Source: Rhodococcus sp. JCM 9791 (lineage in GTDB: Bacteria > Actinomycetota > Actinomycetes > Mycobacteriales > Mycobacteriaceae). Taken from it: a DNA stretch of 34,933 nucleotides. This document shows positions 159 to 23,417 of this stretch, piece after piece. Within the stretch, counting starts at the first letter, position 1. Every line of letters begins with the position of its first letter. The stretch is from contig BBEG01000015.1 of assembly GCA_001312645.1 (NCBI GenBank), positions 1-34,933 of the forward strand, given 5' to 3'. Under the pieces are notes generated by a model. That model ran no database searches, had not been told where the DNA came from, and saw only the letters and a list, made by a program, of their open reading frames with translations. The translations under genes and the position numbers were made by a program.

Positions 159-416
159 GTGCATGCCGGTAGGTATTTCGGTCGAGGTCGGGGACCGGTG
201 GAGCAGAAGAGCATTCTTCATGTCCGGAACCATACTCTTCATGAGGCCTGGATCGTCCGCGGGAGTACGGGTCGCCAGAGGTTGATCCAGCCGGGCCGGT
301 TCGACGTCACCGCTGCGATGCCGGTGGGGTGCCCGTGTCGGCGGACCGAGAAGGGCAAGTGTGGCTGCCGGATCGAGGTGGCCGAGCCAGGTTCAGGCGC
401 TGTCCTCGACTACTGA
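159..416 (+). CDS. Possible small protein with CxC/CxC cysteine pairs
   Basis: This is an 85-codon frame starting at GTG, with a possible internal GTG start at 198. The second half has strong G/C at third codon positions, as real genes here do, and contains two close cysteine pairs (GCPCRR and GKCGCR) that could bind a metal. I do not recognise a family. The 3' end overlaps the end of the convergent TetR gene by 24 bases, and there is no clear ribosome binding site. It may be a genuine small protein or a chance frame in a GC-rich spacer. Confidence 0.3.
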
Positions 417-1019
417 GATTCCGAGTGTGCGGGTCCACGGGTGCCCTTCGAAGACGCGCACGAAATCCTCCGCGAATTCTTCCAGATCTTTGTGACCTTG
501 AGTGATGCCCAGGGTCGACTCGTTGGCGAGGGTCGCCCCGAGGCTGGAGATCATCACCGACATCAACGTCGGGGGCAGTGCATCGAGGTTGATGCCTCGC
601 TGCGGAGGATCACGGTGAGCGCGGCAACCTGACTCTCCCGGTACCGCTCTGCGTACGCCGCTATCTCGGTGCGGATCTCCTTTCGGTGATTCGCCAACGC
701 CATGAACTCCATCAGCAGCGCGGCCCCACGGGGTTCGGTGGCCACTCCCACAGTGCGCGCATGGGTGTCTCGGACGTGAGAGCCTTGCGCTGTCTCTCCA
801 GATTGGCCTCGGCGCCTCGCCGGAGCACCGCGACGAACAGTTCGTCCATGGTGGGGAAGTAGTAGTACACGAGAGCTGGATTGACACCGGCCTTGGCCGC
901 GACCCGGCGTGAGGTTGCTGCGGCGTAGCGTCCTCGAGGAGGATGTCGCCGGTGGCTTCGATCAGCAGATCGCGTGTGTCGTTGGTGCCTTCACGACGCC
1001 GCTTTCGGGGAGCGCTCAT
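393..1019 (-). CDS. TetR-family repressor (frameshifted), likely regulator of the 1305-11100 cluster
   Basis: This DNA-binding repressor has an N-terminal helix-turn-helix and a C-terminal ligand domain. Read in three frames it gives MSAPRKRRREGTNDTRDLLI, then YAAATSRRVAAKAGVNPALV followed by YYYFPTMDELF (recognition helix and its continuation), then a helical C-terminus ending in GISVVEDSA. Breaks lie near 925, 748 and 600; one extra G at each restores about 209 aa, the usual TetR length. It diverges from the aldehyde dehydrogenase at 1305. The 16-bp palindrome at 1092-1107 lies in the shared promoter region and recurs at 2784-2799, so autoregulation plus control of both downstream units is the simplest reading. 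The inducer is unknown. Confidence 0.85.
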   Translation of the reverse strand: MSAPRKRRREGTNDTRDLLIEATGDILLEDATPQQPHAGSRPRPVSIQLSCTTTSPPWTNCSSRCSGEAPRPIWRDSARLSRPRHPCAHCGSGHRTPWGRAADGVHGVGESPKGDPHRDSGVRRAVPGESGCRAHRDPPQRGINLDALPPTLMSVMISSLGATLANESTLGITQGHKDLEEFAEDFVRVFEGHPWTRTLGISVVEDSA

Positions 1020-1304: not shown

Positions 1305-2782
1305 ATGTCCTCTGTTGAACAGGAAGCCCCCACCGATGTCGTGACCGACCAGCGGTTGCTCATCGGTGGCCGGCTGCTCGACGCCGCCTCTGCCTACCCG
1401 TCCGTCAACCCTGCCACCGGCGAGATCTTCGGGTACGCCCCGGATGCGTCCGTCGAGGATGCCGAGGCGGCGATCGCCGCTGCCAGGCGCGCTTTCGAGA
1501 CCACCAGCTGGTCGACGGATGTGGCGTTTCGGCAACGGTGCCTCGAGCAACTCCATCAAGCGTTGACCGATCACCTCGAAGACCTGCGAGATCTGACGAT
1601 CACGGAGGTCGGTGCCACCGTCGCGCTGACCAAGGAAGCGCAGCTCGAAGGCCCGCTCGAGATCGTCCGCTACTACTCGGACCTGCTGAAGACCTACGAG
1701 TTCAGCGAAGAGCTCGGCTCGGCCGAATACATGGGCCAGCAGCACCGCCGCTGGGTGGAGAAGGAGGCAGCCGGGGTCGTCTCGGCCATCGTTGCCTACA
1801 ACTTCCCCAACCAGTTGGCGCTGGCCAAGCTCGCTCCCGCGCTGGCCGCGGGCTGCACCGTCGTGCTCAAGGCGGCGCCGGAAGCTCCGCTGGTCACGTT
1901 GGCCATCGCCGAGTTGATCGCGCTGCACACCGATATCCCGGCGGGCGTCGTCAATGTCCTGTCGTCGACGGATGTGGCCGTCGGTGAGGTGATGACGACG
2001 CACCCGGAGGTCGACGTCGTCACCTTCACGGGTTCCAGTGTCGTGGGCCGCAAGATCATGAAGCCGCCGGCGACACTTTGAAGCGAGTGTTCCTCGAACT
2101 CGGTGGCAAGTCGGCGCTGATCGTGCTCGACGATGCGGACTACGGGCCGATAGCTCCGTATGCGGCATTCGGCATCACGATGCATGCAGGTCAGGCGTGC
2201 GCACTCAACTCCAGGCTTCTGGTGCCGCGGAAGGATCACGACCGGATCGTCGAGGCAGTCGCGGCCATGATGGGCCGCGTCCGCTTCGGTGATCCTCGTG
2301 AGAAGAAGACCTATATGGGCCCGTTGATCAGCGAGAAGCAGCGCGACAAGGTGCACGGGATGGTCGAGCGCGCTGTGGCCGCAGGCGCGACCCTCGTGAC
2401 CGGTGGCGAAAAGGTCGACCCGGGCTTCTTCTACACGCCGACGCTACTGGCCGGGGTGGACCCCGACAGTGAGATCGCGCAGGAGGAAGTGTTCGGCCCG
2501 GTTCTCGCGGTGATCCCGTACGACGACGAAGACGATGCCGTGCGGATCGCCAACAACTCCCCGTACGGGTTGTCGGGCGCGGTCTTCAGCGGCGACGAGC
2601 AGCGAGCGCTGAACGTCGCCCGCAGGATCCGCACCGGCACATTGGGTATCAACGGAGGCAACTACTTCCAGCCTGATGTTCCGTTCGGCGGTTACAAGCA
2701 ATCGGGGATCGGCCGCGAGATGGGTGAGGCGGGGCTGGAGGAGTTCCTCGAACGAAAGGCCATGGCTACGATCCTCCCGTGA
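1305..2782 (+). CDS. NAD(P)-dependent aldehyde dehydrogenase (one frameshift)
   Basis: This enzyme oxidises an aldehyde to the carboxylic acid in the cytoplasm. Start ATG 1305 has GAAGGAG seven bases upstream. After repair of one break near 2064 (AAGCCGCC, expected AAGGCCGCC) the protein is 492 aa, normal for the family. Family features are the cofactor strand TFTGSSVVGR, the catalytic Glu in ELGGKS (about residue 265) and the nucleophile Cys in GQACALN (about residue 299). The Glu-Cys spacing of 34 is that of classical ALDHs. PFGGYKQSGIGREMG near the C-terminus is also typical. It lies between the two copies of the palindromic operator, so it is probably controlled by the TetR at 393-1019 and oxidises an intermediate of the downstream pathway. 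Confidence 0.93.
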
Positions 2783-2799: not shown

Positions 2800-3055
2800 T
2801 TATTGGTCAAGGGTGCTGGGATTGCGTTCCGAGTGGCCGTATACATACAGCTAGACAGACCCATGAACTGGAATTGCCCCAGCACCCCTTGACCTTGATC
2901 GAATCCAAGTGTTAAACATATGACTAAGACGCACTACGCTCGAACGTCGATCGATCGCCACAGCCCGGCGACACCGCGACGGATATTCAGAGTTCGCCAC
3001 AGCGCTGTACTTCAACAGTATTCAGCAGCACCCACACTTGAACGGGAGATGCGAA

Positions 3056-3977
3056 GTGACACGGGCACGACGCTCCGAGCTGGCAACGCCGGCAAGCAAC
3101 GAATCGATGTGCGCGGCTGCGGCCCGCTCCGACGCCGACCTCGTCTTTCTCGACCTCGAGGACGCATGCGCGCCGTCGATGAAGAAGGCCGCGAGAGGGA
3201 TTGCGGTGCAGGCGTTCACCGAGCTGGATTGGGGCCGGACCACCCGGGCGGTCCGGGTCAACGGCCTGGATACGCGTGGTGCCACGACGACCTGATCGAG
3301 GTCGTCACCGCGCCCGCGACACGCTCGACGTGATCATCGTGCCCAAAGCCCGCACCGCCCGCGACGTGTGGTGGGTCGATGTCATGCTCACCCAGCTCGA
3401 GTCGAAGCTCGGGCTCACGAAGCCGATCGGCCTCGAAGTGCTGATCGAGGAAGCGGAAGGCCTGTTCAACGCCCAGGAAATCGCGAAGGCGAGCCCACGC
3501 GTCGAGGCCCTCATCTTCGGTGTCGGTGATCTCTCGGCGTCACTGCATGCCCGCGTCGGCGGCAACTTCCGGCCCGCTCCCGGCACCTACCCAGGCGACT
3601 TCTGGCACCACGCACGCGTTCAAGTCCTCGCCGCGGCCCGGGCAGCGGGTATCGATGCGATCGATTCTCCCTACCCGGACTACGCCGACGCCGATGGCTA
3701 CCGCACCGACGCCGAGCATGCCGCGATGCTCGGATTCGACGGCAAGTGGGCTATCCACCCCAGCCAGGTACCGATCGCAAACAAGGTCTTCACACCCACT
3801 CCGGACGAGATCGCACACGCTCGCAACCTGGTCGACGGCTACCGTGCCGCACAGACCGGTGGCGTCGGCGCGCTCGGCCAGGACGGTCAGCTCGTCGATG
3901 CCGGACACCTCCGCCTCGCAGAGAACGTCCTCGCGAAAGCTGAACTCGCACTGACCGACAGCGGAGCAGTCCGATGA
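3056..3977 (+). CDS. HpcH/HpaI aldolase - citrate lyase beta-like CoA-ester lyase (two frameshifts)
   Basis: CitE-like enzymes cleave or form C-C bonds in beta-hydroxyacyl-CoA thioesters such as malyl-, methylmalyl- or citramalyl-CoA, using Mg2+. GTG 3056 is chosen as start because GGGAG lies just upstream and the homologous region begins there. Visible motifs are VFLDLEDA near residue 30, RVNGLDTR, the [11 protein letters not shown] strand with its acidic ligand, [10 protein letters not shown], and the signature KWAIHPSQV near the C-terminus. Breaks near 3277 and 3313 put about 12 residues ([12 protein letters not shown]) in a third frame; repair gives 307 aa. It overlaps the next gene by ATGA. 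With the CoA transferase at 6652 it suggests that the pathway ends by cleaving a CoA thioester, probably to acetyl- or propionyl-CoA and an oxo acid. Confidence 0.87.
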
Positions 3978-4729
3978 CGGGGCGCCTCGACGGCAAGGTC
4001 GCCATCATCACCGGCGCCGGTTCCGGCATCGGGCGGGCGAGCGCCAACCTGTTCGCCCGCGAAGGCGCCAAGGTGGTCTGCGCCGACATCAGTGGTCAGG
4101 AGAAGGAAACCGCCGACGAGATCGGGAACGCTGCGGTCGCGGTGCACGTCGACGTGGTGAACTCCGCGGACGTGCAAGACATGGTCGCCGCAGCGGTGGA
4201 CTCCTTCGGTCGCCTCGACGTGCTGTTCAACAACGCGGGGCTCAGTGGCAAGCGCGGACCCATCGCCGAACTCGACGAGGACGCGTTCGACATGGTCGTC
4301 GCGGTCAACCTCAAGGGTGCCTTCCTCGGCATGAAGTATGCGATCCCCGCCATGATCGCCTCCGGTGGTGGCTCCGTCATCAGCACGGCGTCCGCGTCGG
4401 CGCTGGTCGGGTGGAAGGGCATCGCGGCGTATTCCGCAGCGAAGGGTGGCGTCGTGCAGCTCACCAAATCGGCCGCGCTCGATTACGCGACGAGCGGTAT
4501 CCGGGTCAACGCGATCTGTCCGGGCATGACCTGGACGGGACTCGCCGGCGCTGCCGCCGACGGACACGTTGCTCCGCCCACCGGAGAAGGTCGGGTACCA
4601 CCCCAGCCGATGAAGCGTTGGGGAGTTCCGCAGGAATTGGCCAACGCCGCACTGTTTCTCGCCAGTGACGAATCGTCGTTCATCACCGGCACTGCCATTC
4701 CGGTCGACGGCGGGTACGTCGCACGCTGA
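3974..4729 (+). CDS. Short-chain dehydrogenase/reductase
   Basis: This intact 251-aa classical SDR interconverts an alcohol and a ketone using NAD(P). It has the nucleotide motif TGAGSGIG (residues 13-20), NNAG (86-89), the catalytic Tyr/Lys in YSAAK (Tyr153, Lys157) with an upstream serine in the STASASA strand, and the C-terminal PVDGGYVAR. An Asp after the second strand (CADIS) suggests a preference for NAD over NADP. It starts inside the stop codon of the lyase gene (ATGA), so the two are translationally coupled. A likely role is oxidation of a ring alcohol to the ketone before ring cleavage; this is inferred from context. Confidence 0.93.
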
Positions 4730-4760
4730 CCTGCCCGACTCGACTGACGAACGGACAGCC

Positions 4761-5721
4761 ATGACACGACCATTTCGCTTCGCCGTCCAGGCGAACAAAG
4801 CGGCCACTGCAACCGAGTGGCGCGACACGGCCCGCCGCGTCGAAGGCCTCGGATATTCCACGCTCTTTCAGTCCGATCACTACCTCGGCGCAGGCCCCGC
4901 GCAGCAGAAGTCGGGGTGGCCGCCCCAGTACCTGGCACCGATCGCATCGCTGGCGGTCGCGGCGGCGTCACCACCACACTGCGTGTGGGATGCCGGGTCT
5001 TCTGCACCGACTACCACGTACCCGGGGTGCTGATCAAGGAAGCAGCGACCCTCGATCTCTTGTCCGACGGCCGATTCGAATTCGGCATCGGCTGCGGTTG
5101 GAGCGAACACGAATATCGTGCCATGGGTGTGCCTTTCGCACCGGCCCCCGAACGGGTATCGAAACTGGAAGAGGTCGTCGCCCTCTTCAAAGCGCACTGC
5201 ACGGGGCAGCCCCTCGATTTGAGCGGCGAGTACGTCACCGCGCAGGACTATGCCGGATTGCCCCTGCCGGTGCAGCAGCCGCACCCGCCGATCATCATCG
5301 GTGGCAGTCGTAAGCGGGTGTTGTCGCTGGCCGGGCGTGAAGCCGACATCGCCAGTATCAGCACGGTGTCGTTCGAGCCGGTCAACGCGCAGGGCCGCAC
5401 CCCGCAGCAGGAGCGGTCAAACGCCTCCAGTTCGTCCGCGACGCAGCGGGTGATCGTTTCCCCGATCTCGACATCGAAAGCTCACCCTTCTTCGTCAAGA
5501 TCACCGAAGATGCGGACACCGCACTGAACAAGATCGCCTCCCGACTGCGTATCAGCGTCGACGGACTCGCAGATCATCCGAATGTGCTGGTCGGCGGTGT
5601 CGACGGGGTCGCCGACCAGCTGCTGAAGCGTCGCGAGACCTTCGGTGCCAACTACATCTCCGTGCAGCAGAGCAATTTCGAGGAGTTCGCGCCCGTCGCG
5701 CAACGCCTCGCAGGACTCTAG
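4761..5721 (+). CDS. Luciferase-like (LLM) flavin- or F420-dependent oxidoreductase (two frameshifts)
   Basis: This TIM-barrel protein belongs to the bacterial-luciferase superfamily. It starts MTRPFRFAVQANKAATATEW, continues with LFQSDHYLG, the barrel core LLSDGRFEFGIGCGWSEHEY and PPIIIGGSRKRVLSLAGREA, and ends NVLVGGVDGVADQLLKRRET. The start and the GIGCGW region resemble the actinobacterial F420-dependent group of this superfamily. FMNH2-dependent monooxygenation, including Baeyer-Villiger-type chemistry, is the main alternative. Breaks near 4967 and 5416 are each repaired by one G, giving 320 aa. No flavin reductase partner lies in the operon, which mildly favours F420. Its place between an SDR and the C-C hydrolase suggests it acts on the ring intermediate. 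Confidence 0.85.
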
Positions 5722-5733
5722 AGAAGGACAGTC

Positions 5734-6648
5734 ATGACCAAGAGATCACGTTTCAGCGAATACAAGGATCGCTACGCGAATTACAAGTTCGAACTCACCG
5801 AAGACGGCATCCTGTTCATGCAGTGCCACACCAACGGTGGGTCGCTGGTGTGGGACTGGAAATCACACGACGACATGGCGGATGCATTCGCCGATGTCGC
5901 GGGTGATCGTGAAATCAAGTGCCTGATCCATACCGGTACCGGCGAGAACTACAACGCCGACTGGGGTTACATGCCCGACGGCTCGCCGATCGACACACCG
6001 ATCTACCAGGCGATGCCCGGCGACCGCGGTCTCTGGAAGCTCGACGAAAAGGCCTGGTACAACCGCAATCTGATGTTCAACGTCCTCGACGTCGACGTCC
6101 CCATGATCAGTGCGATCAATGGGCCGTGCAACATCCACTCCGAAGTGCCGCTGATGGGCGACATCGTGCTCGCCTCGGACACCGCCTGGTTCCAGGACGT
6201 CTCGCACTTCCCGCGCGGACAGGTTCCCGGCGACGGACAGCACGTGATCTGGAACTTCCTCGCCGGCCACAACCGCGGCCGCTACCTGTTGCTCACCGGC
6301 AAGAAGCTGTCGGCGGAGGAAGCCAAGGAGTGGGGTGTCGTCGCGGAGGTGCTGCCGAAGGACCAGCTGCTCGATCGCGCCTGGGAGCTGGCCCACGAAC
6401 TCGTCCGGAAGCCCCCACTGACCCTCCGCTACACCCGACAGCTGTTCACCCATCAGCTCAAGCGGGCATTCCTCGACCAGATGAACCAGGGCATCGGTTA
6501 CGAGACCTATGCCCAGCGCGCATTCTTCCCGGTCGGTGGCTACATGCAGCCGCTGGACCGTGCGTGGGACGACAAGCCCTGGACGAACCGGGACGACAGC
6601 GTCGACGCGGATGGCAACAACAACACAGCCGGCCCCGCGGAGGGCTGA
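5734..6648 (+). CDS. Crotonase-fold C-C hydrolase, 6-oxocamphor hydrolase-like
   Basis: This intact 304-aa crotonase-superfamily protein resembles Rhodococcus 6-oxocamphor hydrolase, which opens a cyclic 1,3-diketone by retro-Claisen C-C hydrolysis without CoA. From recalled data, that enzyme's key residues are Trp40, His122, His145, Asp154 and Glu244. Here Trp40 (GGSLVW), His135 (NIHSEVP), His158 and Asp167 (FQDVSHFPRGQVPGDG) and Glu257 (GIGYETY) are all present; the last four share one 13-residue offset. The segment NRGRYLLLTG is also shared. There is an extra C-terminal tail of about 40 residues rich in N, D and G. A normal enoyl-CoA hydratase would have catalytic glutamates in place of these residues, so hydrolysis of a beta-diketone is more likely. 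GAAGGA lies before the ATG. It probably performs the ring-opening step of the operon. Confidence 0.9.
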   Translation: MTKRSRFSEYKDRYANYKFELTEDGILFMQCHTNGGSLVWDWKSHDDMADAFADVAGDREIKCLIHTGTGENYNADWGYMPDGSPIDTPIYQAMPGDRGLWKLDEKAWYNRNLMFNVLDVDVPMISAINGPCNIHSEVPLMGDIVLASDTAWFQDVSHFPRGQVPGDGQHVIWNFLAGHNRGRYLLLTGKKLSAEEAKEWGVVAEVLPKDQLLDRAWELAHELVRKPPLTLRYTRQLFTHQLKRAFLDQMNQGIGYETYAQRAFFPVGGYMQPLDRAWDDKPWTNRDDSVDADGNNNTAGPAEG

Positions 6649-6651
6649 TCC

Positions 6652-7835
6652 ATGCACGCGCTCGACGGAATCAAGGTCCTGGACCTGGGCACATTCATCG
6701 CAGGCCCGTTCTGTGCAACGGTGCTCGGTGAGTTCGGGGCGGAGATCATCAAGATCGAGCGCCCGGGCGTAGGCGACCACCTGCGCCGATTCGGAACAGA
6801 GACGGACTGCGGGGACACCCTCGTCTGGCTCAGCGAGGCCCGCAACAAGCGGTCGGTGACCTTGGACCTGACAGACCCTCGTGGTCAGCAGATCCTGCGG
6901 GAACTGATCGCCGACATCGTCATCGAGAACTTCCGGCCCGGGGTGATGGAACGCTTCGGGTTCGGATTCGACGAAATCCACGCGATCAATCCGCGCACCA
7001 TCATGCTGCGGGTGTCCGCCTACGGCCAGAGCGGGCCGAACCGCGACCTTCCGGGCTTCGCTCGGGTCGCCCACGCGTTCTCCGGCCTGGCCTACCTCGC
7101 CGGCGAACCGGACGGCCCGCCGGTGACGCCGGGCTCGACGTCACTGGCCGACTACATGACCGGCTTGTACGGGGTGATCGGGGTACTCACGGCGCTGCAG
7201 GCACGGGAACGCACGGGTCGCGGGCAGGTCGTCGACCTGGCCCTGTACGAGACGATCTTCCGGGCCCTCGACGAGTTGGCCCCGGCGTTCCAGCAGTTCG
7301 GTTTCGTCCGCGAGCGGATGGGCGCCGACACCGTCAACGTCACGCCGCACAGTCACTACCAGGCCTCCGATGGCGGATGGGTGGCGATCGCCTGCTCCCA
7401 CGACGACATGTTCGTCCGCCTCGCGAAGGCGATGGGCGACCCGGACCTGGCAAGCCCGGACCTATTCGGCCCCAAGGCCGCACGGCTGAAGGCCCGCGAC
7501 GAGGTGAACTCCCTCGTCTCGAGCTGGTCGGGTCGCTTACCCGCGACGAAGTGATCGCGCGATGCGTCGCCGCGGATGTGCCGGCGGGGCCGTTGAATTC
7601 GATCGCCGACATCGTCCGAGATCCGCAGTTTCTGCACCGGGGCACCATCACGACCACCGAGTCGCGAATCGGCCCACTCGCCGTCCCCAACGTCATTCCT
7701 GCCCTCTCCGACACTCCGGGTGAAATCAGGTGGCTGGGTAAGGAACTCGGATCCGACACGGATTCGGTGCTGCAAGAGCTTTTGACTCGAACTCCGAGCG
7801 AGATCGCCGCCCTGCGCGCAGATGGCGTGATCTGA
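6652..7835 (+). CDS. CaiB/BaiF family (class III) CoA transferase (one frameshift)
   Basis: This family moves CoA from a donor thioester to a carboxylic acid through an aspartyl-CoA intermediate. The N-terminus GIKVLDLGTFIAGPFCATVL, the GAEIIKIERPGVGD segment, NKRSVTLDL and VIENFRPGVMERFG are characteristic. The catalytic Asp is Asp167 in SLADYMTGLYG, close to the usual position near 169. One break near 7533 (TGGTCGGG, expected TGGGTCGGG) is repaired to 394 aa; the C-terminal part contains CVAADVPAGPLNSIADIVRD. It starts four bases after the C-C hydrolase stop. The natural substrate would be the carboxylic acid released by ring cleavage, primed for the CitE-like lyase. That order is inferred. 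Confidence 0.92.
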
Positions 7836-7874
7836 TCGCTCTCAACAGATTTGCTACGAGAAAGGTGCCACACC

Positions 7875-9163
7875 ATGGCAATCCAGGAGAAGTTGGCCAC
7901 CGGCCAGGGGAAGTTCACCCCGAGATATCCGGAACTGGGAACCGGACCCGTCAGCTACGACGACGCCGTCTCCGAAGAGTTCTTCCTCGCCGAACGCGAA
8001 GCAGTGTTCAAGCGGTCGTGGCTCAAAGTGGGGCGCGTCGACCAGCTGCCGCGAATCGGCAGCTTCTTCACCCGTGAACTCGTCGGGCTCGGTTCGATCG
8101 TCATCGTGAAGCAGGCCGACGGCACGGTCAAGGCGCTGCACAATGTGTGTGCCCACCGCGGCAACAAGGTGGTGTGGCAGGAGCATCCCGCAGAAGAGAC
8201 GAAGGGCTCCTGCAAGGCCTTCACCTGCAAGTACCACGGCTGGCGGTACGGGCTCGACGGCAAGGTCGACCACGTCACCAACGAGGAGCAGTTCTTCGAC
8301 CTCGACAAGGGCGCCCTCGGCATGCCGGAGCTGCACTGCGACACGTGGGCCGGCTTCATCTTCGTCAATTTCGATCCCCACGCTCAGCCGTTGCGTTCGT
8401 TCCTCGGTGAGAAGTTCACCGCGGTCGAGAGCTACCCGTTCGAGAAGATGACGGAGCACTACGGCTACAAGACGAAGGTCAAGGGCAACTGGAAGCTCTC
8501 CATCGACACGATCCTCGAGTGGTATCACCCGCCGTATGTGCACGGCCGGTTCATCGATCGCGACGTCTCGAAGGCGGAGAAGCTGGTGCCGCCGCCGGAC
8601 TCCTACTATTACGACCTGTTCACCTCGCACATGCTCAACTCGGTGCCCGGTCCGCCGCAGCTGCCCCCGCGCAAGCCCGGTGAGCTCGGACCCGCCCAGC
8701 GCAATCAGCGCTGGATCTACAAGTTGCTGCGCGCCGGCCTGTTCGGGCCCGACGACGTGCAGGACATCGGCCACTGCCCGACGTCCTCAACCCCGGCAAC
8801 ATCAAGTCCTGGGGCAACGACGCCTACTGGCTGTTCCCGAACTTCTCGGTGCAGATCTGGGCCCGCAACTTCTACATCACCTACCAGTACTGGCCCGAGA
8901 CGGTCGGGGAGCACAGCTACGAGCTCGATATCTACTTCCCGCCGCCGCGCAATGCCGCGGAGCGTCTCGCCCAGGAGATGACCGCTCAGACCACCATCGA
9001 GTTCGCGATGCAGGACTCGAACACTGTGGAAGCAACACATTCGGCGCTGGCTACGGGCGCCAACCGGGAGTTCCACCTGTCGGATCAGGAACTGATGATC
9101 CGCAACTTCCACAAGGTTGTCCGCGACACGGTTACCACCCACCAGAACCTCAGCGAGAAGTAA
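7875..9163 (+). CDS. Rieske non-heme iron oxygenase, alpha subunit (one frameshift)
   Basis: This is the catalytic subunit of a ring-hydroxylating or demethylating oxygenase. The Rieske [2Fe-2S] motif is Cys92-x-His94 (CAHRGN) and Cys118-x2-His121 (CKYHGW). The mononuclear iron site follows NWKLSIDTILEWYHPPYVHG, with the two His ligands in the YHPPYVH segment and a candidate Asp in FAMQDSN. A break near 8775 (CCACTGCC, expected CCACCTGCC) is repaired to 429 aa. ATG 7875 is preferred over an upstream in-frame start because GAAAGGTG lies about 8 bases before it. No ferredoxin or reductase is encoded in the operon, so electrons must come from elsewhere. The substrate is unknown. Confidence 0.93.
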
Positions 9164-9174
9164 GGACATTTCCG

Positions 9175-9510
9175 ATGACGACTTCGACTCTGCCGGAATC
9201 ATTCCGGGAACTCGAGCCCTTTGTCGACGAGTGGGCGCTGGCCACCCGCGAGGAACGCTACGACACGCGTATGGCTCGCACGATCGACGAACTCGACCGC
9301 TTCTACGATGCGATCGCGCCGCGTGCCGAGGAGGCGATCGACTACCTCAACGGATTCGATCTGCAGGACCTGCCCGAGGCCGAGACCACACTGTTGCACC
9401 TGATGTATTCGCTGGTCATGGTGTCGTACCCGGTCAACGTGTTCCGTCAGCCGAAGATCCCCGACTCCGGTGCCGCATTCTTCGACACCGTCGTCGAACC
9501 TGAGGTCTGA
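9175..9510 (+). CDS. Uncharacterised 111-aa helical protein in a Rieske/TauD operon
   Basis: This small, acidic, probably all-helical protein (MTTSTLPESFRELEPFVDEW...) has no signal peptide, membrane segment or cysteine. The stretch LDRFYDAIAPRAEEAIDYLN and the C-terminal MYSLVMVSYPVNVFRQPKIP look conserved in style rather than random, and the frame is unbroken with strong third-position GC. It begins 11 bases after the Rieske stop, preceded by a weak purine-rich AAGGACA, and ends four bases before the TauD-type gene. I do not recognise a named domain. Position suggests an accessory or small subunit for the Rieske oxygenase, but that is a guess from neighbourhood only. Confidence 0.75.
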   Translation: MTTSTLPESFRELEPFVDEWALATREERYDTRMARTIDELDRFYDAIAPRAEEAIDYLNGFDLQDLPEAETTLLHLMYSLVMVSYPVNVFRQPKIPDSGAAFFDTVVEPEV

Positions 9511-9514
9511 CGCC

Positions 9515-10351
9515 ATGGCCTACACCGTCACCGAGATCGGCCCCACAACGGGCGTCGAGATCAGCGGCTTGTCCGGGGCCGAACTCGTGGATCAGGATGT
9601 CGCCGATGTCGCGTTGGATGCACTGAACCGACGAGGCGTGGTGATCTTCAGGGAAGCGAACCTGTCCGAGGACGACCTGGTTGCGTTCAGTCGCCTGTTG
9701 GGTAAGGTTGCGCAACTTCCGCTGGGCGGCGATTCGAAGCATCCGGAGATCCAGAAGGTCACCCGCGATGCATCGCAGAGCAAACTCGCCGCCTACCGCG
9801 AGGGCACCTTCTTCTGGCACATCGACGGCACCACCGCCGAGGTGCCCGACAAGGCGACGGTGCTCATGGCCCGTCAGGTGTCCGACGACGACAGCGGTGA
9901 CACCGAGTTCGCGAACACGTATGCCGCCTACGAGGAACTGCCGGCGGCCGACAGGGCAGAACTCGACGCGCTGCGTGTCGTGCACAGCTTCGCAGCCTCG
10001 CAGCTGCTGGTATATCCGGATCCCGACCCGAAGGAGCGAGCGGCGTGGGATCGCAATCCGTCGCGCGAACATCCGCTGGTGTGGACCCGGGGTTCCGGCA
10101 GGAAGTCGATGGTGCTGGGATCCACGGCCGAGCAGATCGTCGGTAAGTCCGAGGACGAGAGCAAGACGCTGCTGAACCGGTTGCTGGAATGGTCGACGCA
10201 GGATCGCTTCACACTCCGCCACCAGTGGCGGGTGGGTGACCTCGTCATCTGGGACAACACCGGAATGCTGCATCGGGCCTGCCCCTACGGCGAACAGTCC
10301 GCGCGTCTGATGCTCCGCACGTCGCTCGTCGGTGAGGAGGTCGTGCAATGA
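9515..10351 (+). CDS. TauD/TfdA-family Fe(II)/2-oxoglutarate-dependent dioxygenase
   Basis: This intact 278-aa enzyme couples 2-oxoglutarate decarboxylation to hydroxylation of a substrate. The iron facial triad is His102-x-Asp104 (FFWHIDGTT) and distal His253 (DNTGMLHRACPY); Arg264 or Arg268 (ARLMLRTSL) would bind the 2-oxoglutarate carboxylate. ATG 9515 is chosen over an upstream frame extension that overlaps the previous gene. Family members hydroxylate sulfonates, aryloxyacids, carnitine-like acids and others, often causing loss of a substituent. A second oxygenase in one operon implies a substrate with at least two sites to attack. It overlaps the next SDR by ATGA. Confidence 0.93.
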   Translation: MAYTVTEIGPTTGVEISGLSGAELVDQDVADVALDALNRRGVVIFREANLSEDDLVAFSRLLGKVAQLPLGGDSKHPEIQKVTRDASQSKLAAYREGTFFWHIDGTTAEVPDKATVLMARQVSDDDSGDTEFANTYAAYEELPAADRAELDALRVVHSFAASQLLVYPDPDPKERAAWDRNPSREHPLVWTRGSGRKSMVLGSTAEQIVGKSEDESKTLLNRLLEWSTQDRFTLRHQWRVGDLVIWDNTGMLHRACPYGEQSARLMLRTSLVGEEVVQ

Positions 10352-11100
10352 CCGCGAAGGTTGCACTGGTGACGGGTGGCGGTTCGGGCATCGGCCGGGC
10401 CATCTCCCATCGGCTCGCCTCCGACGGGTATGCGGTGGCCGTGCTCGACCTGAACGCCGCATCGGCGAAGACGGTGACCGAGGAGATCCTCGAAAAGGGG
10501 CATACTGCAGTAGCATTCGGTGAAGTGGATGTGTCGGACCGATCGCGGGTGGACGCCGCCGTCGAAAGCGTGCGGGAAAGCCTCGGCGCGGTATCGGTTC
10601 TCGTGAACAATGCCGGCATCACCGGATTCAAGAAGTTCGGTCACATCACCGACGAGGTGTGGGAGCGCACCCTCGCGATCAACCTGTCGGGACCGTTCTA
10701 CGCGTGCCAGGCCGTGGTACCCGACATGGTGAAGGCGGGCTGGGGGAGGATCGTGAACATTTCGTCCTCCAGCGCCCAAGGCGGTCAGCAGTTCATGACC
10801 CATTACGTGGCGTCGAAGGCCGGGCTCGTGGGTTTCACGAAGTCGTTGGCTCTGGAGCTCGGTCCGGAGGGCATCACCGTCAACACGATCCCGCCTGGTT
10901 TCGTGGACACCCCGATGCTGCGCGGGTCGGAGAAGGACGGTCTTCTCGGCGGCAGTGTCGACGAACACGCCGACCGCACACCGGTCCGGCGTGCCGGGAG
11001 GCCTGAGGATATCGCAGCGGCGTGTTCGTTCCTGTGCTCGGAGGAGGCCGGGTACATCACGGGCCAGGTCATCGGCGTGAACGGTGGGCGCAACACCTGA
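10348..11100 (+). CDS. Short-chain dehydrogenase/reductase (FabG-like)
   Basis: This intact 250-aa classical SDR has TGGGSGIGRA near the N-terminus, an Asp at the end of the second strand (VLDLN, favouring NAD), NNAGITG, the ISSSSAQ serine strand, catalytic YVASK and a C-terminal ITGQVIGVNGGRNT. It is the last gene of the operon and is coupled to the dioxygenase by an ATGA overlap. A strong hairpin at 11146-11191 follows. It differs clearly from the SDR at 3974, so the pathway probably has two alcohol oxidation steps. A role in 3-hydroxyacyl-CoA oxidation is also possible. Confidence 0.93.
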   Translation: MTAKVALVTGGGSGIGRAISHRLASDGYAVAVLDLNAASAKTVTEEILEKGHTAVAFGEVDVSDRSRVDAAVESVRESLGAVSVLVNNAGITGFKKFGHITDEVWERTLAINLSGPFYACQAVVPDMVKAGWGRIVNISSSSAQGGQQFMTHYVASKAGLVGFTKSLALELGPEGITVNTIPPGFVDTPMLRGSEKDGLLGGSVDEHADRTPVRRAGRPEDIAAACSFLCSEEAGYITGQVIGVNGGRNT

Positions 11101-12375: not shown

Positions 12376-12379
12376 TCAT

Positions 12380-12710
12380 TCAAGCGTCGAGTAGCGGTTC
12401 GATTGCCGCGACGAAATCGTCCAGTCCCGCCCACCCCTCACCTTGCGGGACCGGGCCCGTATGGTCCTTGTGATAGGGGCGATTGAAGAAGACGACACCG
12501 AAATCGGTCGCGAGTACATATGTGCACTCGTCGTCGCCGAAGGTGATGTCGGGGCGGCCGAGTCGTCGACGATGCGTGGGGTGCGGGTCGTCGAGGCGGG
12601 GGCCTCGGTGGTGTCGTCGACCCCTGGTGCCGGCGCTGGTCCGCAGAACGACGCAACCGCGACCACCGCAGCACGCCCCCACCTGCCCACGCGACCCCCG
12701 ATCCGCCGAA
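12380..12710 (-). pseudogene. Internally deleted second copy of the DUF3558 lipoprotein gene
   Basis: In two frames the complement gives a signal-like AAVVAVASFCG, then STTRTPRIVDDS, then GRPDITFGDDECTYVLATDF, GVVFFNRPYHKDHTGP and GLDDFVAAIEPLLDA. Compared with the intact gene at 11566-12159, about 90 residues are missing between DITF and the C-Y-(V/I)-L segment, including the FLGC cysteine region. There is also a frameshift in the linker. Loss of the core makes this a true pseudogene, unlike the single-base breaks elsewhere. The sequence just upstream (AAAATCGGTTCGACGC) also matches that of the intact copy. Confidence 0.82.
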
Positions 12711-12760
12711 AAATCGGTTCGACGCCGACACTGCGGGCAGGAGGTGTCCGCAGTGGTGGT

Positions 12761-13748
12761 TCAGGACGGGAGTGTGAGGAACTGCATCGGGTCGCTCTTC
12801 TCGAAGTGGCCCGACACCTCACCGGCAAGGCCACCTTGTAGTGCGGTGTCGCTGAGAAGATCCAGCTTGCCCGCCCGCGCACCCTCGCTGAAGTCGAGAT
12901 CGTCCAGATCGACCACACGATGTTGGGTCGGGTGGTCGACTCGAACACGTATCGCTTGTTGGTCAGATCGGCAACGGTCTGCCAGATCGTCTGCGAAACA
13001 TAGGGTTTTCCTGGAGCCGGTGTTCGGAATGGCTGCGCTGCATTGCGCATGACGCTGAGGATTCCTGCGACGGCCTCGACCGGGTTCTCCGGATCCGGTA
13101 GGCGGCCGACGTAATGTGCGGCGCGGGCAAACCTGTCGGATGCAGAATCGGTGCCGGGGATCGGCTTGTCACCCCCGAAACCCTCGATCTGCCTCAGCAA
13201 GTCGATCTGTTTGTCGTAGGTGGGGGAGTTGGTCATGACGACGTGGTCGCGGCTGTGCCAGATCACGGCCTTGCCATCGAGGTACTCGATGACCGCAGAG
13301 TCTCCGGTCGCGTCGTCCAGGGCCAAGTGCACTGCCGGGACTTCACCGGTAGCTGGGTCGCCCAGCGGCACTACCTGTACGCCTGTGCGGTCGATCCACG
13401 ACACTGCCTCGTCGACTGTCGCGAAGTTGTCGAGGAAATACTGCATCCAGACGGCCATGCTGAGTCCGGGTTTGCTGTTGTCATATGTGCCGTAAGTGGA
13501 TTCGGTGAGCCAGAGGATGTGCCCTGCCAAACCCTCCTCGTTCATACCATCGACGGTCATCATGTCGTAGGCTCCCGCCACGACGCTGCCGTACTTCGCC
13601 CTCCAGGCCAGGTTTCCTCCGACACCGTCGTTGCGTTCGACACCGCGAGGAAGCGACCACAGGTTCGTCCCGGTATCGCGTGGTAGTCCATGTTGCGGCC
13701 GACAAGCACACCACCGGAGGGTTCGTTCCAGACGACTCGAGTGCACAT
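12761..13748 (-). CDS. Choloylglycine hydrolase / penicillin V acylase-type Ntn amidase (two frameshifts)
   Basis: These enzymes hydrolyse linear amides (bile-salt conjugates, penicillin V, acyl-homoserine lactones or N-acylethanolamines) with an N-terminal Cys nucleophile. ATG 13748 encodes Met-Cys-Thr-Arg, so removing Met exposes Cys as catalysis requires. GRNMDYH follows, as in the family's RxMD motif, then GTNLWSLPRGVER, VDGMNEEGLAGHILWL and VMTNSPTYDKQI, typical of this fold. Breaks near 13668 and 12915 are repaired by one G each, giving 329 aa. No signal peptide is seen, so the product is probably cytoplasmic. It lies upstream of the DUF3558 pseudogene on the same strand. Confidence 0.88.
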
Positions 13749-13994
13749 TCTTTTGCCTTTCCAGGACGAGTACGGTTCCCGAGGCTGCGGTATGTCGATG
13801 ACGTGTCCAGCGCGCATTTCTCGGCAATGGTGTATTCAGGTGTCGTGTTGAAACAGTGGGTTCTGCACTATCGTCCCGTGGCGAATAGAAACTCCTTCTC
13901 GAATGGTCTCCCAGAGTTTTCTATCACTCTTCTCCTGCGGATGAACCGTCTCGGTCGCGGGGGAGGGTTAGATCGAGGGGTGAATTTCAGCGCG

Positions 13995-15270: not shown

Positions 15271-16125
15271 ATGAGTGAAATTCGAAAAGTCACTGTACTC
15301 GGTGCCGGCGTTCTGGGGTCCCAGATAGCGTTCCAGTCGGCATACAAGGGATTCGACATCACCTCCTACGACATCAGCAATGAAGCGCTCGACGGCGCAC
15401 GGGAGCGGTTTGCCGGATTGGGTGAGACGTACAAGCGGGACGTCGCAGGTGCCACCGAGGACGCTGTTCGGGAAGCGCGCGAAAGACTCACACTGACAAC
15501 GGATCTAGAAGAATCAGTGGCGAACGCCGACCTTGTTGTCGAAGCGGTTCCGGAGATCCTGTCACTCAAGCAGGAGATCTACGGGAAGATCGGGGCTGCA
15601 GCGCCGTCGAAGACCATCTTCGCGACCAATTCGTCGACGCTACTCCCGAGCGACCTGAAGGAGTCCACCGGGCGCCCCGATCGGTTTCTCGCGCTGCACT
15701 TCGCGAACCAGGTCTGGCAATTCAACACAGCCGAGATCATGGGCACTCCCGATACGGACCCGGCAGTGTTCGCAGCAGTGGTCGAATTCGCGACCGAGAT
15801 CGGCATGGTGCCCATCGAACTGCACAAGGAGAAGGCCGGGTACGTCCTGAACTCGCTCCTCGTGCCCTTCCTCTCTTCGGCTGCGCAGCTTGCTGCCGGC
15901 GGATACGCCGACCCTGAGGCAGTGGACAAGACGTGGAAGATCGCGACGGGCGCGCCGATCGGACCGTTCCAGATCTACGACATCATCGGCCTCTCCACCC
16001 CGTACAACATCATGGCCAACGGCGACGATGAGCAGCAGAAACTCGCGGTGTGGCTGAAGGAGAACTACATCGACAAAGGCAAGCTCGGCCTCGCGTCGGG
16101 CGAAGGTTTCTACCGATACTCCTGA
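15271..16125 (+). CDS. 3-hydroxyacyl-CoA (3-hydroxybutyryl-CoA type) dehydrogenase
   Basis: This enzyme oxidises an L-3-hydroxyacyl-CoA to the 3-oxoacyl-CoA with NAD. The intact 284-aa protein has the Rossmann motif GAGVLGSQ near residue 10, the acidic end of strand two (SYDIS), ATNSSTLLPSDL, catalytic His in LHFANQVW (HFxNP-like, here HFANQ) and a C-terminal domain with GYVLNSLLVPFLSSA. ATG 15271 is preceded by GGAGG. The Gln replacing the usual Pro in HFANQ is also seen in some family members that act on other hydroxyacids. The downstream oleate hydratase implies a fatty-acid role; the two are spaced 18 bases apart. Confidence 0.9.
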   Translation: MSEIRKVTVLGAGVLGSQIAFQSAYKGFDITSYDISNEALDGARERFAGLGETYKRDVAGATEDAVREARERLTLTTDLEESVANADLVVEAVPEILSLKQEIYGKIGAAAPSKTIFATNSSTLLPSDLKESTGRPDRFLALHFANQVWQFNTAEIMGTPDTDPAVFAAVVEFATEIGMVPIELHKEKAGYVLNSLLVPFLSSAAQLAAGGYADPEAVDKTWKIATGAPIGPFQIYDIIGLSTPYNIMANGDDEQQKLAVWLKENYIDKGKLGLASGEGFYRYS

Positions 16126-16143
16126 GACGAGAACTGAGGCGCG

Positions 16144-17909
16144 ATGTACTACAGCAGCGGCAACTACGAGGCATTCGCCCGTCCACGCAAGCCAGAGGGT
16201 GTGGACGACAAGTCGGCGTGGTTCGTCGGCTCGGGACTGGCTTCGTTGGCGGGGGCAGCATTCATGATCCGCGACGGCAGGATGGCCGGCAACCGGATCA
16301 CGATCCTCGAACGGCTGAAGTTGCCCGGCGGTGCACTCGACGGAATCAAGGAGCCGAAGAAAGGGTTCGTCATCCGCGGTGGGCGCGAGATGGAGGATCA
16401 TTTCGAGTGTCTGTGGGATCTGTTCCGGTCCGTCCCCTCCCTCGAGGTCGACGACGCAGCGTGCTCGACGAGTTCTACTGGCTGAACAAGGATGACCCGA
16501 ACTATTCGCTTCAGCGCGTCACGGAGAAGCGTGGGCAGGACGCCCACACCGACTTCAAGTTCGATATGAGCTCGAAGGCGCAGAAGGACATCATGAAGGT
16601 GTTCCTCACGCCGCGTGAGGAGCTCGAGAACAAGCGCATCGACGAAGTATTCGGCCGCGAGTTCCTCGACAGCAACTTCTGGCTGTACTGGCGCACCATG
16701 TTCGCGTTCGAGGAATGGCACAGTGCGCTCGAGATCAAGCTGTATCTGCACCGGTTCATCCACCACATCCGTGGCCTACCGGATCTGAGCACCCTGAAAT
16801 TCACCAAGTACAACCAGTACGAGTCGCTCGTGCTGCCGCTGTACACCTGGTTGCTCGACCAGGGTGTGAACTTCCGGTTCGACACCGAGGTCACGGACAT
16901 CGATTTCGAGATCACGCCCGAGAAGAAACAGGCCACGCGTATCCACTGGATCTCCGACGGAGCCGAGGGCGGCGTCGATCTGGGTCTCGATGATCTCGTG
17001 CTCACCACCATCGGCTCGCTGACGGAGAATTCGAACAACGGCGACCACCACACACCGGCGCGCCTCGACGAGGGGCCCGCGCCGGCATGGGATCTGTGGC
17101 GTCGGATCGCAGAGAAGGATCCTGCCTTCGGTCGCCCCGACGTGTTCGGTGCGCACATCCCCGAAACCAAATGGGAGTCCGCGACCGTCACGACACTCGA
17201 CGAACGTATCCCCGAGTACATCGAGAAGATCTGTAAGCGGGATCCGTTCAGTGGACGTGTCGTCACCGGAGGCATCGTCACCGCCCGGGATTCGAAGTGG
17301 CTGATGAGCTGGACAGTGAACCGTCAGCCCCATTTCAAGCAGCAGCCCAAGGATCAGATAGTCGTGTGGGTGTATTCGCTGTTCGTCGACGTTCCGGGCG
17401 ACTATGTGAAGAAGCCGATGCAGGAGTGCACGGGCGAAGAGATCACTCAGGAATGGCTGTACCACATGGGTGTTCCGATCGGAGACATCCCGGAGCTCGC
17501 AGCGAATGCCGCGAAGACAGTGCCGGTAATGATGCCCTACGTCACCTCGTTCTTCATGCCGCGTCAGGCGGGGGACCGACCGGACGTGGTCCCGGAGGGT
17601 GCCGTCAACTTCGCTTTCCTCGGGCAGTTCGCGGAAACCACCCGCGACTGCATCTTCACCACCGAGTACTCGGTCCGCACCGGAATGGAGGCTGCATACG
17701 AGTTGCTGGGCATCGAACGTGGTGTGCCCGAGGTGTTCGGATCGACATACGACATCCGGAAGCTGCTGCAGGCAACGTACTTCCTCAACGACAAGAAGGA
17801 AGAGAACGTACCGCTGCCGAAGCTGATGCGTCGACGGCTGAGCAAGAAGCTCGACGAGAACGAGATCGGCCAATTGCTGCACGAGTACCACATCTTGACC
17901 CGAGAGTAA
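16144..17909 (+). CDS. ohyA: Oleate hydratase, FAD-dependent (one frameshift)
   Basis: This enzyme adds water across the cis-9 double bond of oleate or palmitoleate to give 10-hydroxy fatty acids; FAD has a structural role. The start [20 protein letters not shown], the FAD motif [71 protein letters not shown] and [20 protein letters not shown] match the Rhodococcus-type oleate hydratase as I recall it. One break near 16460 (GCAGCGTG, expected GCAGCGGTG) is repaired to 588 aa, slightly shorter than many bacterial members. It follows the dehydrogenase gene directly and ends 23 bases from a convergent gene. Suggested roles are detoxification of unsaturated fatty acids or entry into beta-oxidation. 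Confidence 0.95.
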
Positions 17910-17932
17910 CTGGGGCACCGCGTAGGTGGAGG

Positions 17933-18897
17933 TCAGACGGTGAGGATCACCTTCCCGCGCGCTGTCCGGCCCTCCACCGCCGCGTGCGCTGCTGCGGCCT
18001 CCGACAAAGGGAAGCGTGTGATCAGCGGTCGGAACTCCCCGGTCGCAGCGCGCTCCAAGGAGGTCGAGCGCAATGCGTCCCACCCGCCCGGCGGAACCAT
18101 GCGTGGCCCCAGCGCCCAGGTCGCTGTGAGTTGCCGGGAGATCAGGTCGGTGGTTGCGATCTCGGTGGGTGAGCCGGATGCCCACCCGTAGAGGATGATC
18201 CGGCCACCAGGGGCGAGAAGTTCGAGAGCCTGTCGCCCGATCCGGCCGCCGACGCCGTCCATCACGACGCTGACCCGGGGTGCAGAGGCAAGGCGCTCCG
18301 GCCAGTCGGGATCGCTGTAGTCCACCGCGATATCGGCACCGTTGTCGCGCACTTGTGCGGTCTTCGTCGCACCACCGGCGGCCCCGACGACGAAAATGCC
18401 CTCACGATGCAAGCTCTGGACGAGCAGCGTGCCGATGCCACCGGCGGCAGAGAGGACGAGGACGGCATCGTCGACCGTCGGTTGTGTGGCGTGCAGTAGA
18501 CCCAGCGTGGTTGCACCGGTGCCGACCATCGCGACGGCGACGTCGGCGGACAGGTCGTCGGGGATGGGGTAGAGGTTTTCCACGCGAGCGACGGCGAGTT
18601 CGGCGTAGCGCCGTGGCCGTCGAGGTGCGCAGCGACTCTCCGACCGATCCATGTGGCTCGACGCCGTCGCCGACCGCATCGACAGTACCGGCGACCTCCC
18701 CGCCCGGCACGAGCGGAAGTGTCGGTGGCAGATGCGGTCCCACCGTCTCGCCGCGCCGGATCTTCGTCTCGATGGTGTGTACTCCGGCTGCTTCGACCGC
18801 GACACGGACTTCGCCCGGGCCCTGGAACAGGGTCCGCAAGGTACTCGTAGATCAGGTTGTCGGGAACGCCGAAGGCGTGCAGTCGTATTGCGTGCAT
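17933..18897 (-). CDS. Zeta-crystallin-type NADPH:quinone oxidoreductase (three frameshifts)
   Basis: This medium-chain dehydrogenase/reductase lacks a catalytic zinc. Restored pieces are MHAIRLHAFGVPDNLIYEYL, GEVRVAVEAAGVHTIETKIR, LPLVPGGEVAGTVDAVGDGV, YAELAVARVENLYPIPDDLS, the NADPH motif SAAGGIGTLL, VMDGVGG, and a C-terminus ending EGRTARGKVILTV. Breaks are near 18818 (one extra G), 18655 and 18613 (one base lost each); the restored length is 321 aa. Its ATG is one base after the MFS stop, so it is the third gene of a minus-strand operon. It probably reduces quinones or reactive enones, matching the neighbouring exporter and FMN reductase. Confidence 0.87.
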
Positions 18898-18898
18898 G

Positions 18899-20323: not shown

Positions 20324-20904
20324 GCGGGCACTCGCAGCGATTTCAGTGCTTCCGACCAGGCGGAGACCTCGTCGATCAGGCCGGTCAGCGCCGGTTCCTG
20401 GTGCTGCCCAGGTATCAATGCTCCGGGTTCCAGTGGGTCGGTGATGTCGAAGTCGTGGTGCAGCGACAGTACTACCTGGGTGCGTACGGTCGCGACCTTG
20501 ACCTCGGCCAGTACGAGCCGAAGGTGTTCGGCTGCCCGCACCCCTCCGGCTTGGACTCCGTACGTGACGAATCCTGCTGCCTTGTCGGCCCATTCGTCGA
20601 ACAGGAAGTCGATGGCGTCCTTCAATGCTCCGGGGAAGGAGTGGTTGTATTCCGGTGCGACGAAGACGAATCCGTCGTACGCCCCGATCGTCGCGGCCCA
20701 CCGTCGTGTGTGCTCCTTCTCGTACGTGCCGAAGATCGCGGGCGCGGACTCGTCGAGGTGCGGCAGGTCGTAGTCGCGTAGGTCTATGACGTCGTAGGTG
20801 TCGTCCGGCCGGTGTTGCTGGGCGACCTCGTGGACCCACTGCGCCACGGCTGCTGCGCGACGTCCGGGGCGGGTGCTGCCGACGATGATGGCTATCCGTG
20901 TCAT
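20320..20904 (-). CDS. NAD(P)H-dependent FMN reductase (flavodoxin fold)
   Basis: This intact 194-aa protein reduces FMN or quinones using NAD(P)H. The N-terminal phosphate loop is VGSTRPGRRA, followed by the flavin-contact motif APEYNHSFPGALKDAIDFLF, as in the NADPH-dependent azo/FMN reductase family, and VTYGVQAGGVRAAEHLR. It is the first gene of a three-gene operon with the MFS exporter and quinone oxidoreductase, and diverges from a TetR across the operators at 20939-20979. The likely role is quinone or azo-compound detoxification. It could also supply reduced flavin to an oxygenase elsewhere. Confidence 0.92.
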   Translation of the reverse strand: MTRIAIIVGSTRPGRRAAAVAQWVHEVAQQHRPDDTYDVIDLRDYDLPHLDESAPAIFGTYEKEHTRRWAATIGAYDGFVFVAPEYNHSFPGALKDAIDFLFDEWADKAAGFVTYGVQAGGVRAAEHLRLVLAEVKVATVRTQVVLSLHHDFDITDPLEPGALIPGQHQEPALTGLIDEVSAWSEALKSLRVPA

Positions 20905-20938
20905 GCGGTGTCTCCTCGGTCGTTGGGTGCACAAGTAA

Positions 20939-20979
20939 AGTACAACGGGTAATGTATAAAGTGCAATAGGTGTTGTACT
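20939..20979. promoter_or_regulatory. Tandem pair of operators in the FMN reductase/TetR divergent promoter
   Basis: Two 20-bp sites lie 21 bp apart, or two helical turns. The second (20960-20979) is AGTGCAA-N6-TTGTACT, an inverted repeat with one mismatch. The first (20939-20958) is AGTACAA-N6-ATGTATA, a weaker version. AAGTACAAC at 20938 also pairs with GTTGTACTT at 20972-20980. Two repressor dimers on one face of the DNA would block both divergent promoters. The nearby TetR is the likely ligand. Confidence 0.7.
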
Positions 20980-20995
20980 TACTAAGGTGTGGACC

Positions 20996-23200: not shown

Positions 23201-23321
23201 GATCGACCTCTCGGACTTGACGCACAAATGAGTCATGTGGGTGAAGCGGACGGCGGAACGTTCTCGGTCGCTTTGAACCGAGCGCTGATCGAGTGCTCTG
23301 TGTGCTGCCGGAGATCCGAAC

Positions 23322-23357: not shown

Positions 23358-23417
23358 ACGACGCGACGTGGGGTAGAACGGGTCGGCGCGTTCGGAGTAC
23401 CCCTGCTCTGTAGGTCC

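Follow-up and report, generated by a model that had tools for sequence, protein, structure and literature searches.

The window analysed here, the whole 34,933-nucleotide contig BBEG01000015.1 (C15) of the draft genome of Rhodococcus sp. JCM 9791 (6.34 Mb in 947 contigs, 76% complete), carries on its + strand an operon which, judged from its sequence, probably serves the catabolism of an alicyclic, possibly terpenoid, compound, and which is patchily distributed among actinobacteria. An initial annotation had named nine of its genes, and Pfam and NCBIfam scans recovered them all: those of an aldehyde dehydrogenase (ALDH), a CitE-type C-C lyase, two short-chain dehydrogenases (SDR1 and SDR2), a luciferase-like oxidoreductase (LLM), a hydrolase resembling 6-oxocamphor hydrolase (OCH), a CaiB-type CoA-transferase, a Rieske oxygenase and a TauD-type dioxygenase. 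A tenth gene, encoding a small protein that we call Sml, had been overlooked, as had frameshifts in the ALDH, CitE, LLM, CaiB and Rieske genes of this contig.

The hydrolase

The best matches of the hydrolase in the Protein Data Bank (PDB) were OCH (1o8u, 3e-61) and the Anabaena beta-diketone hydrolase (ABDH; 2j5g, 2e-57), and these were its only clear relatives there, the next-best entry being the enoyl-CoA hydratase EchA15 (6e-19). Identity amounted to 44% with OCH, counted over the aligned part, and to 43% with ABDH. Six residues (W40, H45, H135, H158, D167 and E257) were identical in the window, in the 16 full-length cluster orthologues described below and in the related locus L072, and all six are kept in OCH (1o8u, 1szo), where a script numbered them W40, H45, H122, H145, D154 and E244; we take them, partly from general knowledge, to have active-site roles in that enzyme. 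The aligned row of 1szo carries an Ala in the His122 column. ABDH (2j5g, 2j5s) shares the His and Asp positions but has Phe in place of Trp40, its Glu lying outside the aligned stretch; PMC3584854 gives D153, H144, E243 and H43 as its catalytic residues. Among seven crotonase paralogues from the same genome, five lacked the full His158-Asp167-Glu257 set, and the other two (L002 and L003) kept it without W40, H45 and H135. In a small tree of 36 sequences, in which the OCH and ABDH rows are partial, the 18 cluster sequences grouped as a single clade (support 0.89) on the side of OCH and ABDH. By these sequence comparisons the enzyme belongs to the OCH/beta-diketone hydrolase group of the crotonase superfamily and is not an ordinary enoyl-CoA hydratase, and its description as 6-oxocamphor-hydrolase-like is borne out.

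The likeness to OCH has its bounds. The operon enzyme carries about 13 extra residues at about 80-100, with a longer loop at about 75-105 and a C-terminal extension, and it stands in a context of Rieske, Sml, CaiB, CitE and F420-type LLM genes. Its AlphaFold model had a pLDDT of 48, and no result rests on it. Relatives encoded on plasmids were about 38-43% identical among the matches listed and had different neighbourhoods in the seven examined: the one on a Sphingobium MI1205 plasmid adjoins P450, TauD and SDR genes and has Tyr and Ala at the positions of W40 and E257, and that on a Novosphingobium US6-1 plasmid has Asn and Leu at those of W40 and H135.

Conservation of the cluster

A pattern scan of a named genome collection with the hydrolase, which reaches close relatives only, returned 18 loci in seven genera (Rhodococcus, Nocardia, Prauserella, Amycolatopsis, Streptomyces, Actinomadura and Parafrankia), two of them from the same Nocardia macrotermitis genome. 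When the window and these loci were compared as 19 sources, with presence set by identity thresholds, the hydrolase gene was found in 19, Rieske and Sml in 18 each, LLM and SDR1 in 17 each, SDR2 in 16, ALDH in 12, CaiB in 11, CitE and TauD in 10 each, and a TetR-type regulator in five. The sequences of L027 and L028 start inside the hydrolase gene, which explains why LLM and SDR1 are each missing from two sources, and L017, where SDR2 directly follows the hydrolase gene and neither Rieske nor Sml is found, stops 1.2 kb past the latter gene. Since TauD is full-length in only eight of the 19 sources (L025 and L028 hold fragments), it is an optional component. Further variation concerned strand and integrity: the LLM gene lies on the strand opposite to the hydrolase gene in L016 to L026, in L025 SDR1 and LLM are found on the other strand, 4 to 6 kb upstream, and Sml and SDR1 are each in two pieces in L018. 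Three Actinomadura loci (L020, L024 and L026) have a different CaiB (39-41% identity) adjoining CitE, so that the two genes stay paired even where CaiB has been replaced.

The initial annotation had proposed a catabolic operon, against which an unconserved gene order would have counted, but the cluster does recur, with these variations, in the 18 loci; because gene content and much of the order are repeated there, the grouping is, on sequence grounds, not one of chance. The cluster is nonetheless rare and patchily distributed among scattered actinobacteria. A search of relatives (E <= 1e-60) found it in two of 101 genomes, the window's own and Rhodococcus sp. SMB37 (G001), the latter being the only carrier among the 17 same-genus genomes listed. 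Within the order (E <= 1e-100) it was present in two of 397 genomes, the window's own and G479, whose locus L072 holds the hydrolase, Rieske, Sml, LLM and an ALDH gene together. A search of plasmid DNA with the core region yielded no record covering 80% of it.

Sml and its association with the Rieske oxygenase

Sml is a conserved component without earlier description and the most unexpected part of the cluster. It gave no Pfam or NCBIfam match, and when 16 members were scanned singly only four families appeared, with one member each and a best E of 0.041; against PDB sequences nothing was better than E 0.22. AlphaFold predicts a bundle of helices (mean pLDDT 86) whose C-terminal tail is of low confidence; for this model Foldseek found no match at E <= 0.001 and 52 matches up to E 10. 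As neither Cys nor His is invariant at any position of the 16 sequences, Sml is unlikely to act through a metal cluster, and it showed neither a family match nor conserved metal ligands that would make it one of the known small Rieske components (a ferredoxin or a SnoaL-like beta subunit).

A profile search of 396 actinobacterial genomes gave 35 Sml matches in 13 genomes, the window included, and in all 35 cases the gene immediately upstream was a Rieske gene of the same subfamily (L039-L068 account for 30, without exception, and L081 for the last of the 35). The converse search with the Rieske protein, over a like-sized draw, gave 34 stretches above 250 bits, counted as 33 genes, and Sml adjoined 32 of these stretches; the two others were 5' parts of frameshifted genes of the window's own genome whose 3' parts border Sml. 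None of eight lower-scoring Rieske stretches (142-165 bits) had Sml within 200 bases, this control being incomplete in that no more than four candidates were scored in each genome and the subfamily was defined by the same search. Sml also occurred in 18 plasmid records, annotated there as 'hypothetical protein'. In six of the seven plasmid loci examined a Rieske gene stood directly beside Sml, which comes first in Cupriavidus; on pISP4 of Sphingomonas sp. MM-1 (L034, 3934-7330), a linC-bearing plasmid, an intact Sml-like gene is accompanied by a Rieske remnant on the other strand and by IS6100 copies. In at least eight loci (L056, L057, L059, L060, L063, L068, L081 and L082) a Rieske-Sml pair is followed by TauD with no OCH-type gene in the stretch, and Rieske-Sml, often with TauD, is thus a module wider than this operon.

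Because Sml stays beside this Rieske subfamily in otherwise differing neighbourhoods, we believe that it is probably a partner or maturation factor of these oxygenases. In Variovorax and Acinetobacter a SnoaL-like gene (Pfam) follows Sml, and therefore Sml is probably not simply a substitute for the usual beta subunit. A stronger proposal, to which we give about even weight, is that Sml is an obligatory partner of the subfamily across Actinomycetota and Pseudomonadota, either as a small helical subunit or as a dedicated maturation factor, and that the operon is one pathway built on this module, feeding a new retro-Claisen ring-cleavage route. If the pairing is functional, one class of Rieske oxygenases has a component overlooked by annotation, which could matter for the expression of these enzymes and for the interpretation of many catabolic clusters.

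Three further Rieske-Sml pairs were seen on contigs C1 and C144 of the window's own genome (L070 and L071). TauD and ALDH genes also occur in the C1 region, as does a gene for an SBP_bac_5 transport protein.

Operon layout and regulator genes

The coordinates are collected in Table 1. In SMB37 (NZ_SLVY01000003.1), whose operon is whole and 88% identical in nucleotide sequence, the nine genes from CitE to SDR2 overlap or are separated by no more than 37 bases. The ALDH gene stops 225 bases before this run begins, and the TetR gene is divergent. The corresponding open reading frame of the window is 47% identical to the SMB37 TetR protein (tblastn), which has a TetR_N match; the window frame itself gave no Pfam match.

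Table 1. Genes of the operon and the divergent regulator, in positions of the window.
Feature	Position	Strand	Remarks
Probable TetR-type regulator	393..1019	-	Divergent from operon; frame doubtful in this contig
Aldehyde dehydrogenase (ALDH), Rv0768 type	1305..2782	+	PF00171 in two pieces; frameshift near 2063
CitE/HpcH C-C lyase, malyl-CoA-lyase-like	3008..3977	+	PF03328; three frameshifts; start approximate
SDR1, short-chain dehydrogenase	3974..4729	+	PF13561, PF00106; intact
Luciferase-like oxidoreductase (LLM), F420-dependent subfamily	4761..5721	+	PF00296; two frameshifts; end approximate
6-Oxocamphor-hydrolase-like C-C hydrolase	5734..6648	+	Crotonase fold PF00378; 1o8u 3e-61; intact
CaiB-type (family III) CoA-transferase	6652..7835	+	PF02515; one frameshift
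Rieske oxygenase alpha subunit	7875..9163	+	PF00355, PF00848, both above cut-offs; one frameshift near 8771
Sml, small helical protein	9175..9510	+	111 codons; directly downstream of Rieske; intact
TauD/TfdA-type dioxygenase	9515..10351	+	PF02668 (SMB37 protein); intact
SDR2, short-chain dehydrogenase	10348..11100	+	FabG-like NCBIfam subfamily model above cut-off; intact

In Actinomadura a PaaX-type regulator gene separates SDR1 from Sml (or SDR2), namely at 12650-13585 of L020 (Pfam); the same place is indicated in L026 by the start of the gene and in L024 by the intergenic gap alone. In the loci of Nocardia and Rhodococcus its place is taken by a TetR gene.

Frameshifts and selection

Compared with SMB37, five of the ten operon genes of the draft contig are frameshifted, by eight one-base insertions or deletions (three in CitE, two in LLM and one in each of ALDH, CaiB and Rieske). 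Both strains have unbroken copies of SDR1, the hydrolase, Sml, TauD and SDR2, with ratios of nonsynonymous to synonymous substitution (dN/dS) of 0.03-0.10 (hydrolase 0.03, SDR2 0.07, TauD 0.09, SDR1 0.10), values which point to purifying selection on these five genes. Since the SMB37 operon is intact and the window's genome has split Rieske genes on two further contigs (L052 and L061), errors of sequencing or assembly seem a likelier source of the frameshifts than decay. That the cluster is a pseudogene relic was considered and found less likely, given the one-base nature of the events, the low dN/dS, the whole operon of SMB37 and the split Rieske genes elsewhere in the genome.

The other enzymes

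The SMB37 proteins allowed two of the initial assignments to be narrowed. The luciferase-like oxidoreductase stood as to family and falls in the F420-dependent subfamily TIGR03621 (257.4 bits, above the curated cut-off of 213.15), its best solved relatives being named F420-dependent oxidoreductases. The CitE-like lyase likewise stood as to family and is closest to malyl-CoA and beta-methylmalyl-CoA lyases (5ugr, 9.5e-73; 4l9y, 6.2e-66), although the NCBIfam models of the group all stayed below their cut-offs (NF041626, 90 of 500 bits). For CaiB the family III CoA-transferase fold is clear, the nearest NCBIfam model being that of succinate-glutarate CoA-transferase (242 of 750 bits, far below cut-off), and the SMB37 protein carries Asp169, which we take to be catalytic. 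The SMB37 ALDH matched TIGR04284 best (635 of 775 bits, below cut-off). The SMB37 TauD has the HxD and distal His motifs, with the taurine dioxygenase model at 116 of 313 bits, below cut-off.

The sequence of the Rieske protein marks it as an oxygenase alpha subunit. C92, H94, C118 and H121, as well as E215, H218 and H223, were invariant in 17 sequences, and the E-x2-H-x4-H motif formed by the latter three is presumably the iron site. The C-x-H and C-x2-H ligands and the Glu of this motif are shared with carnitine monooxygenase CntA (6y9c), and the rows of the dioxygenases 9jp5, 5xbp and 4hjl have Asp in place of the Glu. Plasmid relatives of the Rieske protein were 26-33% identical to it among the matches listed. 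Unlike known Rieske oxygenases, the present one is paired with Sml and has no beta-subunit gene inside the operon. L016 and L019 have reductases with FAD, NAD and [2Fe-2S] domains, of a kind suitable for a Rieske enzyme, in the vicinity of the cluster, and in L073 and L074 such reductases are close to other Rieske-Sml pairs; reductases of the PDR/VanB family adjoin two of the plasmid Rieske-Sml pairs.

The proposed pathway

Going by the chemistry of these families, we propose the following reactions, in the order given. The ring would be hydroxylated by the Rieske oxygenase with its constant neighbour Sml as partner, joined in some strains by TauD, and SDR1, SDR2 and the F420-dependent oxidoreductase would modify alcohol and ketone groups so that a cyclic 1,3-diketone results. 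The OCH-like enzyme would then add water and break the C-C bond between the carbonyls, yielding a keto acid in a CoA-independent retro-Claisen step for which His158, Asp167 and Glu257 are the likely acid-base set. Any aldehyde may be oxidised by the aldehyde dehydrogenase, the CaiB enzyme could transfer CoA onto the acid, and the malyl-CoA-lyase-like protein is predicted to split a 3-hydroxyacyl-CoA into an acyl-CoA and a 2-oxo acid such as glyoxylate. OCH, an enzyme from Rhodococcus, cleaves a bicyclic monoterpenoid diketone, and because of this and of some host names that suggest plant association, a terpenoid or other alicyclic plant compound is plausible as substrate.

In outline the cluster would thus resemble camphor degradation, with a hydrolytic ring opening and a CoA-transferase, without being a camphor pathway by label. 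As described in PMC4097962, the route of Pseudomonas putida (P450cam, CamD, the diketocamphane monooxygenases and CamF) follows a like logic of hydroxylation, alcohol oxidation to a diketone, C-C opening and CoA activation, but there the ring is opened by Baeyer-Villiger oxidation, where hydrolysis is proposed here, and CoA is attached by a ligase instead of a transferase. A pathway through 6-oxocamphor would be expected to have a P450 hydroxylase in the cluster, whereas the operon contains none, the nearest in the window being at 29299-30435. P450 genes are found near the cluster in L012, L016, L019 and L072, and a P450 could take part in the pathway. Our searches of the open-licence literature in PMC yielded no description of this gene combination (Sml, being nameless, was not searchable by name) and no pathway described around an OCH/ABDH-like hydrolase. 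Camphor degradation via 6-oxocamphor, curcumin degradation in Rhodococcus sp. no. 34, abscisic acid degradation in Rhodococcus and the anaerobic steroid ring-A beta-diketone hydrolase were neither tied to the cluster nor excluded by sequence comparison. The conserved operon gives the OCH-like hydrolase a testable pathway and named hosts.

Weighing of the explanations

Several observations weigh against catabolism through ring cleavage. The genes of the lower pathway (CaiB, CitE and ALDH) are not constant across the 19 sources, which is due in part to contig ends, and no reductase or ferredoxin gene lies within the operon itself. Rieske-Sml pairs are widespread without a nearby OCH-type gene, so that the oxygenases of those pairs need not serve the ring hydrolase. 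The extra loop and an identity of 44% would also allow a substrate different from that of OCH. The hydrolase could instead act on an open-chain or side-chain 1,3-diketone, such as a plant or microbial beta-diketone, with the oxygenases and dehydrogenases preparing or trimming side chains; the hydrolase is about equally near to OCH and ABDH, and a beta-diketone-cleaving enzyme acting on open-chain curcumin has been reported from another Rhodococcus. Nevertheless, at position 40 the window enzyme has the Trp of OCH and not the Phe of ABDH, and the curcumin enzyme CurH is said to be thiolase-like and unrelated to the hydrolase, and we regard this explanation as unlikely.

Somewhat further from the evidence would be an ordinary crotonase that acts on a CoA ester, as hydratase or ring hydrolase, after the CaiB step and not before it. 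The crotonase fold and the CaiB gene directly next to it speak for this, and the steroid literature names ring-opening crotonases working on CoA esters (COCHEA-CoA hydrolase, with HIEC-CoA as an intermediate); but the hydrolase groups with the CoA-independent OCH and ABDH, and the residues that it has in common with OCH set it apart from all seven paralogues of its own genome, which makes the explanation rather improbable in our view. We consider it very improbable that the cluster is biosynthetic. Rieske and TauD enzymes do tailor natural products, the TauD protein also scores, weakly and as a secondary hit, against the family of pentalenolactone F synthase (82 of 550 bits), and the cluster is patchy and occurs in genera which, by general reputation, are known for antibiotics. 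A CoA-transferase, a C-C lyase and an aldehyde dehydrogenase, however, suit catabolism better, and no polyketide synthase, peptide synthetase or terpene synthase family was met with among the selected proteins scanned (Pfam), the flanks not having been systematically searched. Ring cleavage of an alicyclic compound is in our view the most probable explanation.

Neighbouring genes

Elsewhere in the window, a 3-hydroxyacyl-CoA dehydrogenase gene stands directly beside an oleate hydratase (MCRA) gene at 15271-17909 (+). The region 16050-21563 is 97% identical to SMB37 DNA found there at another place and in another orientation, which suggests a rearrangement; neither of the two SMB37 regions compared matched the window beyond 21563. 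A choloylglycine-hydrolase-family protein (PF02275) is encoded at 12376-13827 (-), with a low coding score over part of the frame, and the gene is perhaps frameshifted. The region 21629-30435 (-) encodes an SBP_bac_5 transport protein (21629-23236), an SDR (23791-24264, part), an FAD-binding CO-dehydrogenase-like subunit and a cytochrome P450, and is probably a second catabolic cluster. Peptide-type ABC transporter genes (SBP_bac_5, oligo_HPY ATPase, permease) likewise lie near the hydrolase cluster in Streptomyces himalayensis (L018, 9-2699, -) and Prauserella endophytica (L016, 2-730, -), and transporters in such positions could possibly import the substrate.

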